The position numbers and the translations under genes were made by a program. This document shows positions 2,656-37,919 of a stretch of 41,069 bases of DNA, one piece after another (within the stretch, counting starts at the first letter, position 1; every line of letters begins with the position of its first letter). Under the pieces are notes generated by a model, which saw nothing but the letters and a program-made list of their open reading frames with translations, was not told the DNA's origin and did not search any database. Origin of the DNA: a virus; the IMG/VR virus record IMGVR_UViG_3300025459_000012, positions 1 to 41,069 of that record; one strand, 5' to 3'.

Positions 2656-2963
2656 GTGAAATCCAAAAAACAACGATCCGAGAAATTCAGCAGGCTGTAT
2701 GTGCTCACTACCGCATCGGTCGCGTTGATATGCTGTCAAAATCTCGGGTAGTTCATTTGGTCGAGCCCCGCCACATCGCGATGTTCTTATCTCGCAAACT
2801 TGGGGAGCGATCATGGGGACAAATCGGCCGCGCGTTTGGTGGCCGTGACCATACGACCGGGATACACGCAACTCGCAAGATCGCCGCGCGCGTCGATGCC
2901 GGGGATCGCGAGACACTGAATTCGCTCGCGGCGATCAAGGCGGTGTTGGGAGGTAGCGCATGA
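2652..2963 (+). CDS. DnaA domain IV-like DNA-binding protein
   Basis: 103 residues from ATG 2652, which overlaps the preceding stop by ATGA. Almost the whole protein is a DnaA C-terminal (Bac_DnaA_C) domain: IREIQQAVCAHYRI at the start, HIAMFLSRKL in the middle, then SWGQIGRAFGGRDHTTGIHA at 55-73, which carries the DnaA signature RDHTT-x-x-x-A. The ATPase domains of DnaA are missing. Stand-alone domain IV proteins could bind DnaA boxes to recruit or titrate host initiation, or repurpose the fold as a phage regulator. It overlaps the methyltransferase start by ATGA. Confidence 0.85.
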   Translation: MSEIQKTTIREIQQAVCAHYRIGRVDMLSKSRVVHLVEPRHIAMFLSRKLGERSWGQIGRAFGGRDHTTGIHATRKIAARVDAGDRETLNSLAAIKAVLGGSA

Positions 2964-5092
2964 GCCAGTCATTCCACAATGGCCGCGTTATTCTTCATGC
3001 CGGCGATTGCATCAACGTGCTTGATGACATGGACGCGAACAGTGTGGACGCGGTTTGTTGTGACCCGCCTTATCATCTGCTTTCGACAATAAAAAGGTTC
3101 TCCGCAACCTCACTTGATGGCGAAGGAACTAACGAAAAGCGCGCACGCGCCGGGACGGATGGATACGCGCGCCTGTCCAAAGGCTTCATGGGCAAAGCCT
3201 GGGATGGTGGCGACATCGCGTTTCGTCCCGAGACATGGGCGAAGGTATTGCGCGTGCTCAAGCCCGGCGGACATCTTGTCGCTTTCGCCGCGCCGAAATG
3301 CTCGCATCGCATGGTCTGCGCGATTGAGGACGCGGGGTTTGAAATCCGTGACCAAATCATGTATTTATTTGGAAGCGGATTCCCGAAAAGTCTAAATGTT
3401 TCCAAGGCGATAGACAAGGCTGCCGGTAAACTTGAGACGCAAAGCGTTGGTTTCAATGTCGCCGGGAAATCGTCGGGTCTTGGCACAATCCAACGTCCAG
3501 AACTTCGTTCAGATCACCCAGAATATAAGCTCTATGAACACGCGACCGATGACGCGCGCAAATGGGAGGGCTGGGGAACGGCATTGAAGCCGGCGTTTGA
3601 AAATATTTGTTTGGCGCAAAAACCCTTGCAAAATAACGAAAATATAGCGATAATAGGCTCCAAGCTACGTGAAATATGGAGCGCGCTATGGTCGACGTTG
3701 CCTGCGAAAGATGCGGAACAGTTTTCGATGTTAAGCCCTCGCGATTGCAGCGGGGAAGAGTTCGGTTTTGCTCAATGGAATGCCGAGCGGCGGTCCAATA
3801 CACGGGGCGCTTTATCAGATCAGATGGATATGTCGCTGTTCGAGACGGCGACGATTTCCAGCTTGAGCACCGTCGCGTCATGGAACGGCATTTGGGCCGA
3901 AAGCTCGAAACGCGCGAACACGTCCATCATCGAGACGGAATTAAGCACCATAATGACATTGAAAACCTTGAGGTTCTTAGTGTCGAAGATCACGCCAGTG
4001 AGCATCATCCTGGCCCACAGGACTGGTCAATGGTCGATTGCGAATGCCTCACATGCGGAAAGAAGTTTCAACGCAATCGCCTTGAAGTTGAGCGCCATCC
4101 TCGAACTTTCTGCTCTCGCGAATGCTATCGATCTGGAAGCGGAAAATTGCCGGGTCGCGGGCGTTAGCCCTGCCTACGAGCCGATCTGCCTCGCCTGCAA
4201 ACCGCTTGGCGAAGCGACAGTCGCGGCCAATGTGCTGAAGCATGGAACCGGAGCGATCAACGTTGACGCATGCAGGGTTGAAGCTGATGACCAAGAGGCG
4301 CTCGACAGAAATTGGGACCGCGAGACGATAACCGATATTCGCGGCGGCAATCTCATGAACGGCAAACCGGGAGGATTGCCAAATACGCGGCGGCGTCACG
4401 GCGGCGGCATTCCTGGCAACGGAACGTCTTTCGAATTGCCGGATGGCAAACATGAACTGCCGTCCGGGAGATGGCCGGCCAACATCTGCCATGACGGCAG
4501 CGAGGAAGTGCTGGCTGGATTTCCGGATACGACAAGCGGAATTCTCGCTGAACATCACCAACGCTCACAAGAAAAGCAGGTGAATGTCTTTGGCGCATGG
4601 AAGGGCGAAGGCGTCGGTTCGACCTTTGAGAATGCGCCGACATATGGCGATTCAGGTTCTGCAGCTCGTTTCTTCTACAGCGCCAAAGCTGGCCCAGATG
4701 ATCGCCTAGCGTCGAAACATCCAACGGTAAAACCAATCGCGCTCATGCGCTGGTTAGTGCGGATGATAACGCCTCCGGGTGGGACTGTCCTCGACTGCTT
4801 CGCTGGAACTGGCAGCACAGGCCATGCGGCATTGCTCGAAGGATTCAAATCTATCCTGATCGAGCGCGAGGCCGAATACCGCGCCGACATTGAGCGCCGC
4901 ATGTCGCTCGTTTTCGCTGGCGAGCATGAAACTACGATGGCGACGAAAAAACAGGACGATCATAGCACGCTTCCACTGTTCGGCGGCATGGATGATGCGG
5001 GGGGGGGGGAATCCTCTCAAATACAACGGGCACAAGTGCAAGTTCTTCGTCGGACCAGCCGAACCATCGGACCCATAGGAATGAAGAGGTGA
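2960..5092 (+). CDS. DNA methyltransferase (beta-type order), carrying an in-frame 579-bp insertion
   Basis: 710 residues. DPPY at 35-38 (catalytic, typical of N6-adenine or N4-cytosine methylation) precedes DCFAGTG at 612-618 (SAM-binding), the beta-group order. Late motifs HPTVKPIALMRWL and LIEREAEYR are also present. The peptide KPAFENICLAQKPL (residues 210-223) recurs as SPAYEPICLACKPL (403-416). Between their ends lie exactly 579 bases (193 codons), which contain an HNH gene in another frame. Without the insert the enzyme would be about 517 residues with a continuous KPL-GEATVAANV. The frame stays open through the insert. Near the 3' end, 11 consecutive Gs (4999-5009) make the last 30 or so residues doubtful. 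It may protect phage DNA from restriction or regulate transcription. Confidence 0.8.
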   Translation: MSQSFHNGRVILHAGDCINVLDDMDANSVDAVCCDPPYHLLSTIKRFSATSLDGEGTNEKRARAGTDGYARLSKGFMGKAWDGGDIAFRPETWAKVLRVLKPGGHLVAFAAPKCSHRMVCAIEDAGFEIRDQIMYLFGSGFPKSLNVSKAIDKAAGKLETQSVGFNVAGKSSGLGTIQRPELRSDHPEYKLYEHATDDARKWEGWGTALKPAFENICLAQKPLQNNENIAIIGSKLREIWSALWSTLPAKDAEQFSMLSPRDCSGEEFGFAQWNAERRSNTRGALSDQMDMSLFETATISSLSTVASWNGIWAESSKRANTSIIETELSTIMTLKTLRFLVSKITPVSIILAHRTGQWSIANASHAERSFNAIALKLSAILELSALANAIDLEAENCRVAGVSPAYEPICLACKPLGEATVAANVLKHGTGAINVDACRVEADDQEALDRNWDRETITDIRGGNLMNGKPGGLPNTRRRHGGGIPGNGTSFELPDGKHELPSGRWPANICHDGSEEVLAGFPDTTSGILAEHHQRSQEKQVNVFGAWKGEGVGSTFENAPTYGDSGSAARFFYSAKAGPDDRLASKHPTVKPIALMRWLVRMITPPGGTVLDCFAGTGSTGHAALLEGFKSILIEREAEYRADIERRMSLVFAGEHETTMATKKQDDHSTLPLFGGMDDAGGGESSQIQRAQVQVLRRTSRTIGPIGMKR
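3629..4207 (+). mobile_element. Probable HNH-bearing insertion in the methyltransferase gene
   Basis: Span between the ends of the two copies of the peptide PA(F/Y)E(N/P)ICLA(Q/C)KPL; true ends could lie anywhere within the duplicated peptide (from about 3590). Copy one (3590-3628) uses AT-rich codons (TTT GAA AAT ATT TGT TTG), copy two (4169-4207) uses GC-rich codons like the rest of the gene. Length is a multiple of three. No clear group I intron core was recognised, though removing it would restore an ordinary methyltransferase. Confidence 0.6.
3676..4167 (+). CDS. HNH homing-type endonuclease nested in the methyltransferase gene
   Basis: 163 residues, in a different frame from the enclosing methyltransferase. 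An N-terminal zinc-finger-like module (Cys10, Cys13, Cys32, Cys36) is followed by an HNH_3-like core: RRVMERHLGRKL (66-77), EHVHHRDG (81-88), NDIENLEVL (93-101), then His106 and His110. A second module (Cys124, Cys127, Cys146, Cys150) resembles the first. The order finger-HNH-finger is typical of free-standing phage homing endonucleases that cut DNA and spread by repair copying. Start 3676 is uncertain (ATG 3688 also possible; no strong ribosome site). The stop at 4165-4167 falls just before the native copy of the host peptide. Confidence 0.85.
   Translation: MERAMVDVACERCGTVFDVKPSRLQRGRVRFCSMECRAAVQYTGRFIRSDGYVAVRDGDDFQLEHRRVMERHLGRKLETREHVHHRDGIKHHNDIENLEVLSVEDHASEHHPGPQDWSMVDCECLTCGKKFQRNRLEVERHPRTFCSRECYRSGSGKLPGRGR
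4999..5009 (+). other. Run of 11 G inside the methyltransferase 3' end
   Basis: Eleven consecutive G bases at the codons for Ala-Gly-Gly-Gly. Such runs are prone to sequencing length error, replication slippage (phase variation) or ribosomal slippage. A one-base change would swap the last ~28 codons for a tail containing NPLKYNGHKCKFFVGPAEP, ending at 5078, in place of the tail ending at 5092. Confidence 0.7.
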
Positions 5093-25398: not shown

Positions 25399-25473
25399 GT
25401 TGCGGAGCGGAGCGGAGCGTGGCGTTGCGTTGCGGTGCGTGGCGATGCGGTGCGGAGCGGGGCGGAGCGTGGC
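25399..25473. repeat. Pentamer array A (15 units of GNNGC)
   Basis: Fifteen uninterrupted units. NN in order on the + strand: TT GA GA GA TG TT TT GT TG AT GT GA GG GA TG. Lies past array B at the distal end of the minus-strand cassette. Upstream flank carries TTAGGTTAGC (from 25369), a 10-mer that recurs near array C. Confidence 0.9.
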
Positions 25474-25529
25474 GTTTGGTGGTTCTCCACCGTCCAGCCG
25501 ACCGTGATCGGCTGAAGCTGGGGAAGTTC
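25474..25529 (-). other. Structured spacer between arrays A and B
   Basis: 56 bases with two perfect hairpins: GGTGG/CCACC with a TTCT loop (25478-25491) and CAGCCGA/TCGGCTG with a 6-base loop (25495-25514). Ends in GAAGTTC directly before the first GTTGC of array B, as does the spacer between C and D. Confidence 0.7.
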
Positions 25530-25574
25530 GTTGCGTTGCGGAGCGAGGCGTTGCGTGGCGCGGCGTCGCGACGC
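25530..25574. repeat. Pentamer array B (9 units of GNNGC)
   Basis: Nine units; NN: TT TT GA AG TT TG CG TC AC. On the - strand it begins 14 bases after the stop of the RAMP-like gene. Confidence 0.85.
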
Positions 25575-25588
25575 GTAGTAAACGTTTG

Positions 25589-26227
25589 CTAGCCGACCAC
25601 CGACCACTGGAATCGAGTCGGTCTAAATCGACCCAGCCCATTCGGGCAACCCGTTGACGGACGACCGCGACCAACGCCGGCGATAAGCCCCGCTTTCGCG
25701 AAAAACTCCTCGAACTTTTCCTGCGTGATGGAGTCGTTGAAAATCCTGAATGTCACGGAGCCTCCCCACTTGGGGAAGAATGGAAACACGCGGTTGACAC
25801 GCGTTCCCGGCATGCGCTTGCCATTCGCGTGACAATATACGGTCTCGAATTTCGTGTCGGCGATATTGACGCCAAGGTCCATGTCCGTGAGTGGAGCGAG
25901 CCCCATCTTGAAGACGCCGGCCCAGCGCTGATTTCCCTTGCCAGTTATTTTTTCATTGAGATTTTGGGCTGCTTCGTCGATGCAGAGCTTGAACGCCGCG
26001 CCGGGGATAAATACCGATCCATCGCCCCGAGTATGCGCCTTATGTCGCCATGCGCGCGCTTCGAAATCGTCCCACGTTTCGGATTTTTCCTTTTCGAAGC
26101 CCGGATGAGCGGACTGACTGTATGGGGTTATCCCTTCGAGGGTGACTGTCACGTCGCGAATAGCGAAGGCTTCAATATCGGCGTCTTGGCCTTCGTCGTC
26201 ATTGATAAGCGAGGTCGTGTCGGACAT
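25589..26227 (-). CDS. Phage protein with RAMP/Cas7-like motifs
   Basis: 212 residues on the - strand from ATG 26227, with AAGGA 9 bases upstream. VTVTLEGITPYSQSA (27-41), ETWDDFEARAWRHKAH (50-65), DGSVFIPGAAFKLCIDEAA (68-86), GTRVNRVFPFFPKW (142-155) and a glycine-rich end (AGVGRGRPSTGC, then NGLGRF). I recognise a conserved phage family with this order, function unknown to me. Two features recall RAMP/Cas7-type RNA-binding proteins: the 'IPG-x-x-x-K' segment, like IPGSSLKG in Csm3/Cmr4, and a C-terminal glycine-rich loop. This link is an inference from motifs. Last gene of the cassette. Confidence 0.6.
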   Translation of the reverse strand: MSDTTSLINDDEGQDADIEAFAIRDVTVTLEGITPYSQSAHPGFEKEKSETWDDFEARAWRHKAHTRGDGSVFIPGAAFKLCIDEAAQNLNEKITGKGNQRWAGVFKMGLAPLTDMDLGVNIADTKFETVYCHANGKRMPGTRVNRVFPFFPKWGGSVTFRIFNDSITQEKFEEFFAKAGLIAGVGRGRPSTGCPNGLGRFRPTRFQWSVVG

Positions 26228-26249
26228 TTGTGATTTTCCTTAGGTTAGC

Positions 26250-26329
26250 GTTGCGGAGCGTGGCGGAGCGTGGCGTTGCGTTGCGCGGCGTAGCGAAGCG
26301 CGGCGCGGCGTAGCGAGGCGTTGCGATGC
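26250..26329. repeat. Pentamer array C (16 units of GNNGC)
   Basis: Sixteen units; NN: TT GA TG GA TG TT TT CG TA AA CG CG TA AG TT AT. Ends 22 bases before the start of the RAMP-like gene (- strand), preceded on the + strand by TTAGGTTAGC (26239-26248). Confidence 0.9.
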
Positions 26330-26384
26330 GGTAGCTTTCGCCACCATGAGACGGCCCTTGAGCCGCCTGGTGCTGACGAAGTTC
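26330..26384 (-). other. Structured spacer between arrays C and D
   Basis: 55 bases. CACCA (26342-26346) pairs with TGGTG (26368-26372) around an inner hairpin CGGC/GCCG (26352-26365). Ends in GAAGTTC immediately before the first unit of array D, like the A-B spacer, although the rest of the sequence differs. Confidence 0.7.
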
Positions 26385-26464
26385 GTTGCGGAGCGGAGCG
26401 GAGCGGAGCGAGGCGTTGCGATGCGTGGCGGAGCGTGGCGTTGCGTTGCGGTGCGGTGCGGGGC
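26385..26464. repeat. Pentamer array D (16 units of GNNGC)
   Basis: Sixteen units; NN: TT GA GA GA GA AG TT AT TG GA TG TT TT GT GT GG. On the - strand it begins 4 bases after the stop of the winged-helix-like gene. Shares the block GA-TG-TT-TT with arrays A and C. Confidence 0.9.
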
Positions 26465-26468
26465 GTCG

Positions 26469-26969
26469 TTAACTTTTTCCAGCGCCCTTGATATTGCTCA
26501 AAGCGGTGGCGAAATCGAAGACAGAGGCTTGATCGCCTATGTCCGGCCTTTTCCGGTTCGACGATGTGACAGCCGCACTGGTCGTCGAGGCGATAATGTT
26601 CGCGCGAGAATACATCTCCACCGCCACGAGATGATCCTTTTCGTTAAGGTTCTCATTGATGGCGAGAAGCATTCTAGACGCGATCCGCGTGGATTTTTTT
26701 CGAATAGATGAGAATAGTCCAGCGCCAGAAGAAATCATGTCCTTCCCGGTTCCGCGCGAGAAGCCGAATTTTCTAATCGTGGCCACATAAACGCCGTGGT
26801 CGCGCTCCGCGATAAGCTTCGCGGACTGGTATGCTGGCGTTGTCGATTTGATGGGAAACCCGATAGTCAGGGAAGCCTGCGCGAATGAAATCGGCTCATC
26901 GTATTTTAAGTCTCGGAACATATTGACGATCTTGACGGTTTCGGCTGATTGCTCAAAGGATTTTCTCAT
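26469..26969 (-). CDS. Possible winged-helix DNA-binding protein
   Basis: 166 residues on the - strand from ATG 26969, with AAGGATG as ribosome site. Residues 10-70 (TVKIVNMFRDLKYDEPISFA, QASLTIGFPIKSTTPAYQSA, KLIAERDHGVYVATIRKFGF) look like a winged helix with a recognition helix and a beta wing. Residues 95-165 are a second, mixed region (RMLLAINENLNEKDHLVAVE). Function unknown. Middle gene of the cassette, with arrays on both sides. Confidence 0.5.
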   Translation of the reverse strand: MRKSFEQSAETVKIVNMFRDLKYDEPISFAQASLTIGFPIKSTTPAYQSAKLIAERDHGVYVATIRKFGFSRGTGKDMISSGAGLFSSIRKKSTRIASRMLLAINENLNEKDHLVAVEMYSRANIIASTTSAAVTSSNRKRPDIGDQASVFDFATALSNIKGAGKS

Positions 26970-26989
26970 CGCGGCATCCTTTTATATGC

Positions 26990-27044
26990 GTTGCGTTGCG
27001 GAGCGTGGCGCGGCGGCGCGAAGCGTCGCGGAGCGACGCGTTGC
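26990..27044. repeat. Pentamer array E (11 units of GNNGC)
   Basis: Eleven units; NN: TT TT GA TG CG GC AA TC GA AC TT. It fills the space between the HTH gene's stop (8 bases away on the - strand) and the ribosome site of the winged-helix-like gene. Confidence 0.85.
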
Positions 27045-27052
27045 GCGGTAAA

Positions 27053-27250
27053 TCATGGTTTTTTCGTGTATTTTTCGACGAGCACAAGCCCAAGGGCGTC
27101 AAGAATGGCCTTTCCGGGCTTGCGGCCACCACGAAGAACGTCGCTGACATAAGCGCCGCTCAAATTGTGTTTGTCGGCCCAGGCGATTTGGCTGCCGACC
27201 TCGGCGCACTTGGCGCGCAAGAGTGTGAGAACTTCGTCAACGGTCATCAT
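27053..27250 (-). CDS. HTH (XRE/Cro-like) regulator of the cassette
   Basis: 65 residues on the - strand from ATG 27250 (a second ATG follows at once). Residues 20-55 (SQIAWADKHNLSGAYVSDVL, RGGRKPGKAILDALGL) form a clear helix-turn-helix of the phage Cro/XRE kind: 'A-x-x-x-x-L-S-x-x-Y-V-S-D-V-L-x-G-x-R-x-P-x-x-x-I-L-x-A-L-G'. First gene of the cassette, behind a promoter with an internal dyad, so it probably controls its own operon. Confidence 0.8.
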   Translation of the reverse strand: MMTVDEVLTLLRAKCAEVGSQIAWADKHNLSGAYVSDVLRGGRKPGKAILDALGLVLVEKYTKKP

Positions 27251-36120: not shown

Positions 36121-36263
36121 AATATAGGATTGAAATGAATAGGGCAGTAATTACTGCAAGAATGATACCAGTCATGATAACCAACTCCATTTATACAGGT
36201 TCGTTTGATAGTTCGGCTGGCTCTCCAACGCTGGACGGCCTGACTACCTACCACAGGAACCCC

Positions 36264-37919
36264 ATGCTTCACAAGCTATGCCTCGTCCTCGCCGCAATGA
36301 TGGTCATCCTCGAGGCGACAGTTGCCTTTGGCCAGGCCGTCCAAGTCATGCCGGCCGAACAATGTTTTCAGGCCACGACCGGCATCAATGGAATGATCGG
36401 CGTCCTCGGAACGATCACCGGAGGTTCTGGCGGAACGGCCGGAATCTTCGTGAATGTCCCATTGACTGGCGGCGTCGGAACGGCGGCTAGTGCTAATATA
36501 ACGGTTGTTTCCGGGGCTGTCACCCAAGTTGTCATCCTTAATCCTGGTATAAATTACGCCGCAGGCGACGTTCTCTCTGCCGCAAGTGGAAGCATTGGAG
36601 GAGTTACTGGATTTTCCGTTCCTATAAATTCAATATCAATAAATTCCTCATTAGCAGGCGGTTCAGTCGGTATGTATATACCGAACACATTGACCTATTC
36701 TCAGACGTGGCAGGATTCGGCCCAGACTATATTAAATACCAATCCGATCGCTCTTGATTCAAATGGCTGCGCCATCATATGGGGCATAGGAACTTATCGG
36801 CAAATACTCTACGATAACTTGGGAAATGAGGTCTGGGATCAGCTGACCTCTGTCGCTCCAATCAATCCCTACTGGGCCGGCACGGCCTCTGGCACGGCGA
36901 ACTTGATCACTGTAATCGATGCTTCGTTTGGTTCGGTCTCGGGCCAGACGATCCAGTTTTCCGCGCTGTTCACGAATACCGGCGCGACAATGATTGACGG
37001 GATTCCAGTTGAGAAGAATTCAGCCACTGGCCCCGTAGCGCTGACGGGCGGTGAGATCGTCGCGGGCAATCTCTATCTCGTCACCTATAACGCCGCTCTT
37101 GGCGCTTTCATTATTCAGAACCCATCGATTCCAACGTCGGCTTCTCCTGCCATGTTGGGAGGTGCTTACGGAACATTGATCACGAACAATTCATCCACGC
37201 CAAACACCCAAATCGACGCTTCGGCGACAATGGCGGTTTTGACGAACAGTGCCGGTTTTGGCGTCCAAGTCTCGGCTCCTTCGGTCACGATCAATGCAGC
37301 GGTGATTGGCGCCAATGGCATTGATGTCGGCGGTCTCGCGGTCAGCACATGGTATTATGTTTGGTTGATCAATAATGGAACCACGACCGCTGGCCTTGTT
37401 AGCCTATCCTCGACCGCCCCGACGCTGCCAACTGGCTACACGTATTCACTACGGATTGGTTCCGTAAAGACCGATGGATCGGCGAATTTTTATAGGTTTG
37501 TTGAAAGAGGAAATGATTTTGCATGGGTAGTTGTCACTTCGACAAATACTCCAACGCTATTTCCCATAATTCCTTATAATACCGCGACTGGAGATGTGGG
37601 TGTTCCGACATGGATTGGTGAAGTAGTGCAGGCGTCCTCTGGATTATCACCCTTGGCGTTAGTTCCACCGACAGGAAAAGCAATAAAAGTTCTACTATTA
37701 AGTCTTAGCTCTGGAACAAACAGCGCCATAGTAGCTCCAAACGGTGATTATGGCGGGCAAGTTTCCGCGACTAATCCTCCACCATTGCAGAATCCCGGAG
37801 CTACAAATAGCGCAACGGCAAAAACAATAACTCTTGAGAGCACGTCCATTTATGTGGCGACCCAAGCGAACGCCGCGATATTCACCGATGGATTCATCGA
37901 CTCTGCAAATGTGAACTGA
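36264..37919 (+). CDS. Secreted tail-fibre-like protein
   Basis: 551 residues from ATG 36264 (CACAGGAAC upstream), chosen because it gives a good Sec signal: MLHKLCLVLAAMMVILEATV, cleavage likely after AFG or VAF. An upstream in-frame ATG at 36135 (AGGA before it) would place 43 odd residues before the signal. The body is Gly/Thr/Ala-rich beta sequence; YSQTWQDSAQTILNTNPIAL and DSNGCAIIWGIGTYRQILYD are typical of phage tail-spike head-binding modules ('Y-x-D-x-x-x-x-x-x-x-N-P-x-x-L-D-x-x-G'). It would bind host surface sugars. Late insertion of the signal is unusual for a tail protein. Confidence 0.6.
   Translation: MLHKLCLVLAAMMVILEATVAFGQAVQVMPAEQCFQATTGINGMIGVLGTITGGSGGTAGIFVNVPLTGGVGTAASANITVVSGAVTQVVILNPGINYAAGDVLSAASGSIGGVTGFSVPINSISINSSLAGGSVGMYIPNTLTYSQTWQDSAQTILNTNPIALDSNGCAIIWGIGTYRQILYDNLGNEVWDQLTSVAPINPYWAGTASGTANLITVIDASFGSVSGQTIQFSALFTNTGATMIDGIPVEKNSATGPVALTGGEIVAGNLYLVTYNAALGAFIIQNPSIPTSASPAMLGGAYGTLITNNSSTPNTQIDASATMAVLTNSAGFGVQVSAPSVTINAAVIGANGIDVGGLAVSTWYYVWLINNGTTTAGLVSLSSTAPTLPTGYTYSLRIGSVKTDGSANFYRFVERGNDFAWVVVTSTNTPTLFPIIPYNTATGDVGVPTWIGEVVQASSGLSPLALVPPTGKAIKVLLLSLSSGTNSAIVAPNGDYGGQVSATNPPPLQNPGATNSATAKTITLESTSIYVATQANAAIFTDGFIDSANVN

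Follow-up and report, generated by a model that had tools for sequence, protein, structure and literature searches.

VIPR (Viral Interference Programmable Repeat) is a CRISPR-like system of phages presented in a 2026 preprint (PMC13142463). According to its main text, the system combines a viral RAMP protein with guide RNAs (vrRNAs) made of 9-16 YNNGG units, also written GGY/NN, and a 3' tail. Further marks of a VIPR system are a Vipr of about 20 kDa, NN pairs that differ strongly between related systems on a conserved spine, an invariable structure in the tail, skips at codon wobble positions and an accessory vap gene. The NN pairs bind double-stranded DNA with a one-base skip, and the result is repression of genes in competing elements (PMC13142463). 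There are seven types, described as having "GGY/NN motifs, or a related consensus", and the system of Escherichia phage SUSP1 is type II, with vipr and vap1 at KT454805 28031-29061 (PMC13142463). The SUSP1 arrays lie on the same strand as vipr.

The DNA considered here is a viral sequence of 41,069 nucleotides (IMG/VR record IMGVR_UViG_3300025459_000012), which we call the window. It contains a 212-aa gene accompanied by arrays of GNNGC pentamers. The author of an earlier note on this DNA knew of no named element with such a form; one can now be named, as the arrays match the VIPR guide RNAs (PMC13142463, 2026). We are confident that the arrays and the gene form a VIPR cassette with a variant CGC spine in a P22-like podovirus. 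We file the cassette as VIPR because the protein, the arrays and their hypervariability all agree with that system, as does the target code tested through a relative. Our case rests on the homology and fold of Vipr, the polarity of the arrays and their constant 3' end, the folding and covariation of the tails, the linkage of arrays to vipr, a spine that is kept while the NN pairs turn over, and the skip rule in the relative.

The likeness to the SUSP1 system is extensive. Both have a small gene for a Cas7-like Vipr and, on the strand of that gene, pentamer arrays both upstream and downstream of the protein genes, units of three constant bases plus NN, a structured 3' tail (on arrays 2 and 4 in the window) and a small accessory gene whose predicted helix layout is similar by eye. 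Unlike SUSP1, the window has CGC as its constant triplet instead of GGY, its arrays end (3') in constant CGC-AA units and also sit between genes, the tail differs and no SUSP1-like pseudoknot was identified in it, the accessory gene has no detectable homology to vap1, and there is an extra HTH gene. Another comparison is with the backbones of class 1 CRISPR systems (Cas7/Csm3, type III and type VII), which share the RAMP fold with the window's Vipr and in which the guide RNA is coated and splayed at regular intervals, as we propose for the window. The window differs from them in lacking a CRISPR array or other cas genes, and its guide is interrupted at every unit where a CRISPR guide is nearly contiguous. 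A third comparison is with a cassette in a Paracoccus litorisediminis prophage (L145, G001 contig 19). It has CGC/NN arrays with 3' AA units, a Vipr about 39% identical to the window's and an alignable accessory gene (23%).

Table 1. Elements of the cassette by position in the window; NN pairs are given in the RNA sense.
Feature	Position	Strand	Description
array 1	25399..25473	-	15 units, final element of the cassette; NN: CA TC CC TC AC AT CA AC AA AA CA TC TC TC AA
array 2 3' tail	25474..25529	-	GAACUUC..., outer stem and hairpin with UCACGG loop; z -3.24 on -, -1.62 on +
array 2	25530..25574	-	9 units, 14 bases past vipr stop; NN: GT GA CG CA AA CT TC AA AA
vipr	25589..26227	-	212-aa Cas7-like RAMP (Vipr) protein; C-terminal glycine-rich loop GVGRGRPSTG..GLGRF; phrog_4652 (unknown function)
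array 3	26250..26329	-	16 units, directly upstream of vipr start codon; NN: AT AA CT TA CG CG TT TA CG AA AA CA TC CA TC AA
array 4 3' tail	26330..26384	-	GAACUUC..., outer stem and hairpin with UCAAGG loop; z -3.68 on -, -1.42 on +
array 4	26385..26464	-	16 units; NN: CC AC AC AA AA CA TC CA AT AA CT TC TC TC TC AA
vap-like accessory gene	26469..26969	-	166 aa; predicted winged helix and two long helices
array 5	26990..27044	-	11 units; NN: AA GT TC GA TT GC CG CA TC AA AA
HTH gene	27053..27250	-	65 aa, leads the cassette; phrog_925 HTH DNA-binding, E 4e-4; candidate member of the system

Read on the minus strand, the order is HTH gene, array 5, accessory gene, array 4 with its tail, array 3, vipr, array 2 with its tail, and array 1 (Table 1). 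The cassette is inserted opposite to the direction of the late genes of a P22-like podovirus, recognised by its portal (PF16510), coat (PF11651) and head closure Hc3 (phrog_578) proteins. A sigma-70 promoter scan found no promoter, and an Rfam search of the cassette gave nothing above threshold, only two sub-threshold matches that look like chance. Elsewhere in the window, a 710-aa protein (2960-5092, +) matches N6/N4 DNA methylases only in residues 578-644 and has no confident family outside them. A 594-aa protein (36135-37919, +) carries the second domain of Mtd (Pfam PF21916, E 1.6e-5). Mtd is the tropism protein of diversity-generating retroelements; such a retroelement is not evident in the window, as the large ORFs that were scanned include no recognisable reverse transcriptase.

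A scan of the whole 41,069-base record for runs of at least 3 tandem units finds 67 GNNGC units in five plus-strand arrays of 15, 9, 16, 16 and 11 units, ordered by position, and no further run anywhere else in the window. When the window is shuffled 200 times with a first-order Markov model (dinucleotide composition), runs reach 4 units at most. The G--GC frame is unbroken: all 67/67 units have the same base at three of the five positions, and variation is confined to the remaining two. On the plus strand the pair is TT 17 times, GA 15, TG 9, CG 5 and GT 4, and CA, CC and CT are absent among the 67 units. The array sizes and NN counts that the earlier note had made by hand are thus reproduced exactly, and its statement that the arrays are unique within the window holds. 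They occupy the gaps around three minus-strand genes (212, 166 and 65 aa). The genes ending at 27053, 26469 and 25589 are each followed on that strand by an array, which starts 8, 4 and 14 bases past the stop codon, respectively, in agreement with the 4-14 bases given before. Every one of the five arrays contains a single copy of GCAACGCAACG, which is absent from the rest of the window. Each array starts on the plus strand with GTTGC once or twice and then GGAGC. This motif was described correctly, but as an opening it has the wrong direction; since the functional strand is probably the minus strand, it is the 3' end of the RNA. Read on the vipr strand, each array consists of CGC-NN units with constant CGC-AA units last. 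There is some local NN duplication within arrays, as in GGAGC GGAGC GGAGC. Arrays 1, 3 and 4 also have in common a run of 4-5 units, AA AA CA TC (CA or TC) in the RNA sense, which could mean that guides were duplicated, that their targets overlap or that the constant part is longer; the relative with a 77%-identical Vipr has none.

The product of the 212-aa gene is a Cas7-like RAMP protein of the Vipr family, judging from profile comparison and a predicted structure. A single-sequence search of the PDB gives only a weak match, to the "SUSP1 Vipr protein" 36pp (E 0.22), while a profile built from a 44-member alignment finds 36pp as its sole match with E 1.5e-8. Aligning the protein against SUSP1 Vipr with hhalign gives a probability of 96. 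The AlphaFold model has a pLDDT of 92.3, and Foldseek returns 149 PDB matches with E<=1e-3, the best being type VII Cas7 and Csm3 chains (best E 5e-8, TM about 0.5); all of the 50 listed among the 149 are CRISPR RAMP chains (Cas7/Csm/Cmr/Cas7-11) or effector complexes. The gene is intact and keeps the residues that are invariant across the 44-member Vipr alignment. A tblastn search of Vipr against named phages gave no match. No further RAMP or cas gene was recognised in the cassette and no CRISPR-like repeat-spacer array is present among the window's tandem repeats, which sets it apart from class 1 CRISPR-Cas. The model of the accessory protein has a pLDDT of 81, the winged-helix fold matches are weak, sequence comparison with SUSP1 vap1 gives no significant match, and the order of helices and strands is alike by eye only. 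The gene is kept beside vipr in loci L140, L133, L080, L082, L029, L135 and L141.

Three tests place the predicted RNA of the window's arrays on the vipr (minus) strand: 3' AA bias, strand-specific folding and a shared tail structure. In 344 arrays taken from 120 loci, NN entropy stays near 3.8-3.85 bits of a possible 4 everywhere but one end. It drops only at the 3' end on the vipr strand, where AA makes up 38, 31 and 21% of the final three units. The two linkers that separate paired arrays fold more stably than shuffled sequence on the minus strand and hardly so on the plus strand (Table 1). The same tail structure, an outer stem with an inner hairpin and a UCANGG loop, is common to both window tails and to locus L133. 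Of its 16 predicted pairs, 6 have both bases substituted in one or more of the sequences; this covariation comes from three sequences only, so it is modest. Arrays 1, 3 and 5 end in constant AA units and no obvious folded tail was identified after them.

The earlier note had asked for a genome search with at least 8 tandem units and a look at the neighbouring genes. The exact 8-unit GNNGC pattern gives at least 119 stretches in viral contigs. Array loci usually hold several arrays on one strand, and a search with a profile built up from the 212-aa protein of the window and two other Vipr seeds finds a Vipr homologue in 86/120 of them. The reverse approach agrees: in 58 of the 80 loci of a sister clade fetched by the protein alone, arrays of period 5 lie on the strand of vipr, with CGC as the constant triplet in 50, CAC in 7 and CGT in 1. 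Part of the remaining 22 have mixed C[GT]C or CRY units that fall below our array detection rule. Of seven loci found with the window's own Vipr clade, 6 have CGC arrays and the seventh, L139, has GAC arrays. It had been held that arrays scattered in unrelated contexts would make a cassette-specific function unlikely; with linkage of 86/120 and 58/80, such scatter is not what we find. As a separate observation, one Vipr homologue lies in a cyanobacterial contig (L146, Iningainema tapete), with no period-5 array found nearby.

Comparing the NN order between related phages was another proposed check, and we consider its outcome decisive. A 6.9-kb contig binned as Lysobacteraceae (L140) encodes a Vipr 77% identical to the window's, in genes about 70% identical in DNA. 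An accessory gene is present too, arrays occupy the same gaps, and the genomic surroundings are entirely different. Its spine keeps CGC except for a few CTC units, yet it has no NN run longer than 2 in common with any of the window arrays. The flanking genes in L140 differ, with no evident border repeat. The constant triplets GGY, CGC, CAC, CGT and GAC all fit S-R-Y, and the triplet label is clustered on the Vipr tree, with 17 changes against 29.9 when shuffled, a contrast that near-copies inflate. We provisionally regard the CGC spine as a variant of the published GGY, a comparison made with the main text of the preprint, which allows "a related consensus" (PMC13142463).

The Paracoccus prophage allows the target code itself to be examined. 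Because L145 is a prophage in a sequenced host genus, its targets can be identified. Guide 1 (CT AT GA CG GT AC CT GT) has exact 16/16 matches with one-base skips in 2/125 Paracoccus genomes, both in a GpA-like terminase at the peptide LIERVTLV with the skip at the wobble base; the reversed control has 1 match. Guide 2 (AA CC TC TC CT GA TT CG) also matches 16/16 in 2/125 genomes, with 0 for its control. Both of its matches are antisense in a large serine recombinase at the peptide RKSSEEGL, again with the skip at the wobble base, and we take this peptide for the catalytic serine region of the recombinase. The names terminase and serine recombinase are our reading of the translated sequence and not a database assignment. 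Taken alone these counts are near background, given that a guide from L140 gave 3 chance-like matches in 395 genomes. Guide 3 (AA CG TC AT TT TA AC AC AC AC TC AC) is read through CTC, TGC or CCC units. It matches 23/24 bases in guide 2's recombinase gene in the same genome, antisense at VDVVVVYKIDRL, with the skip at wobble phase. Other skips reach at most 14-15 and 200 shuffles of the NN order at most 17. The guide 3 match settles what the near-background counts of guides 1 and 2 could not, so the one-base-skip code is supported in a CGC-type relative.

The window's own guides are a different matter. Exact 9-unit scans of viral contigs with arrays 3, 5, 1 and 2 give 1, 0, 2 and 1 independent matches, which is chance-like; a rough size estimate, assuming viral contigs averaging about 20 kb, puts the chance expectation at about 1-2. 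The genes matched by arrays 3, 1 and 2 were a small gene in which the skip misses the wobble base, an RNA-ligase-like protein, an uncharacterised 176-aa frame and a DNA polymerase. These are unrelated genes in single lineages, and we reject them. In the records matched by arrays 1 and 2, array 3 finds nothing even when 3 mismatches are allowed, array 5 has no match in 397 Hyphomicrobiales genomes, and 290 guides compared with VIPR-flanking loci gave nothing above noise at any skip. The 3 matches of the L140 guide in the 395 Lysobacteraceae, its assigned host family, include two in chromosomal EAL-like genes and were also taken as background.

If the cassette works as the published system does, its vipr gene would yield a small Cas7-like protein, and the arrays would be transcribed together with it from the minus strand to give vrRNAs. 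Each of these would be a series of CGC-NN units closing with one or two CGC-AA units, with a structured tail in two cases. By analogy, Vipr monomers would polymerise on the RNA at one per five bases, gripping CGC and exposing the NN pair. The pairs would then match a DNA target of the form NN-x-NN-x-NN, in which x is ignored and is usually the wobble base of a codon. The bound complex would block transcription of a gene in a competing phage or mobile element, with possible help from the predicted winged-helix protein at the DNA. We infer the steps of transcription, processing, assembly, DNA binding and repression, as well as the targets of the window's guides. Among the roles suggested earlier, a ladder for a multimeric RNA- or DNA-binding protein came close: the arrays are probably an RNA ladder for the cassette's Cas7-like RAMP, to which we add a guide code in the NN pairs. 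Rho loading, mRNA protection and a transfer tag found no support.

Several observations count against the VIPR reading. The triplet is CGC and not the GGY of the main text. The NN runs of 4-5 units shared by arrays 1, 3 and 4 are unexpected for independent guides. That no target was found for the window's own guides, that a guide from L140, the closest relative, gave only chance-like matches, that arrays 1, 3 and 5 have no obvious folded tail, and that the accessory gene has no significant vap1 match must be counted here as well. Some of these points favor the idea that the arrays are untranslated RNA ladders for self-control of the operon (autoregulation, mRNA protection or Rho traffic) with no DNA target. 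The arrays do sit between co-oriented genes, one of them directly upstream of the vipr start, the window's NN pairs are biased and partly common between arrays, and no window target was found. However, a regulatory ladder should not exchange its NN order completely while the spine is kept beside a 77%-identical Vipr, nor should the Paracoccus arrays match genes of rival mobile elements at a 1-nt skip, and we consider this idea improbable.

We give still less credence to a VIPR-derived cassette that is inactive here or self-directed, for instance controlling the phage's own genes. In its favor, no external target was found for the four arrays scanned (1, 2, 3 and 5), but the invariant Vipr residues are kept in an intact gene and databases hardly cover the phage's host. 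The missing target is weak evidence either way. The idea that the arrays are simple slippage repeats or a recombination tag with no RNA role draws on their short period and the local NN duplications, and we find it hardly credible. Against it stand the three positions that hold in every unit while two vary, the tie of the arrays to the strand of a RAMP gene in many phages, the polarised 3' end of the RNA, the folded, covarying tails, and the differing L140 flanks with no evident border repeat. The linkage and target data already contradict this idea.

Preferring the VIPR reading for the window, we also lean, with less assurance, towards a joint reading of all these loci. The GGY spine would be dispensable for VIPR guides. 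A large class, mostly of environmental phages, would use CGC and tolerate CTC, TGC and CCC, with smaller groups on CAC, CGT or GAC. The S-R-Y triplet held by the protein would evolve with Vipr while the one-base-skip code is kept, and at least one CGC-type system would aim several guides at conserved motifs of a single rival gene, such as the active-site region of a recombinase. VIPR became known only in 2026, through guides whose spine is GGY in the main text (PMC13142463), and the window leads to a large CGC-spine set. This gives independent database confirmation of a gapped, wobble-skipping target code in another spine class, and it supplies natural targets (terminase, serine recombinase) together with many orthologous guide RNAs. 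One can now test which residues of Vipr recognise the constant triplet and whether guide arrays fail to see one another when their spines differ; such invisibility would matter for phage competition and for orthogonal tools.

Some variant loci deserve mention. The Vipr of L139 (3894-5276) is 37% identical to the window's and is accompanied by three GAC/NN arrays (17, 10 and 12 units) with a repeated tail, GAATCAACAAAAG. L136 (4603-5404) has three arrays, each with a tail of about 23 bases behind it; these tails are nearly identical (GATTGTTTTAGCCCTTTCCCAAC and variants) and simpler than those of the window. Loci L026, L053, L091 and L113 have a different Vipr subfamily (MSKNLTIQFHLVGTRPLMFD...) on the strand opposite to their CGC arrays, so their guides would read GCG/NN on the vipr strand.
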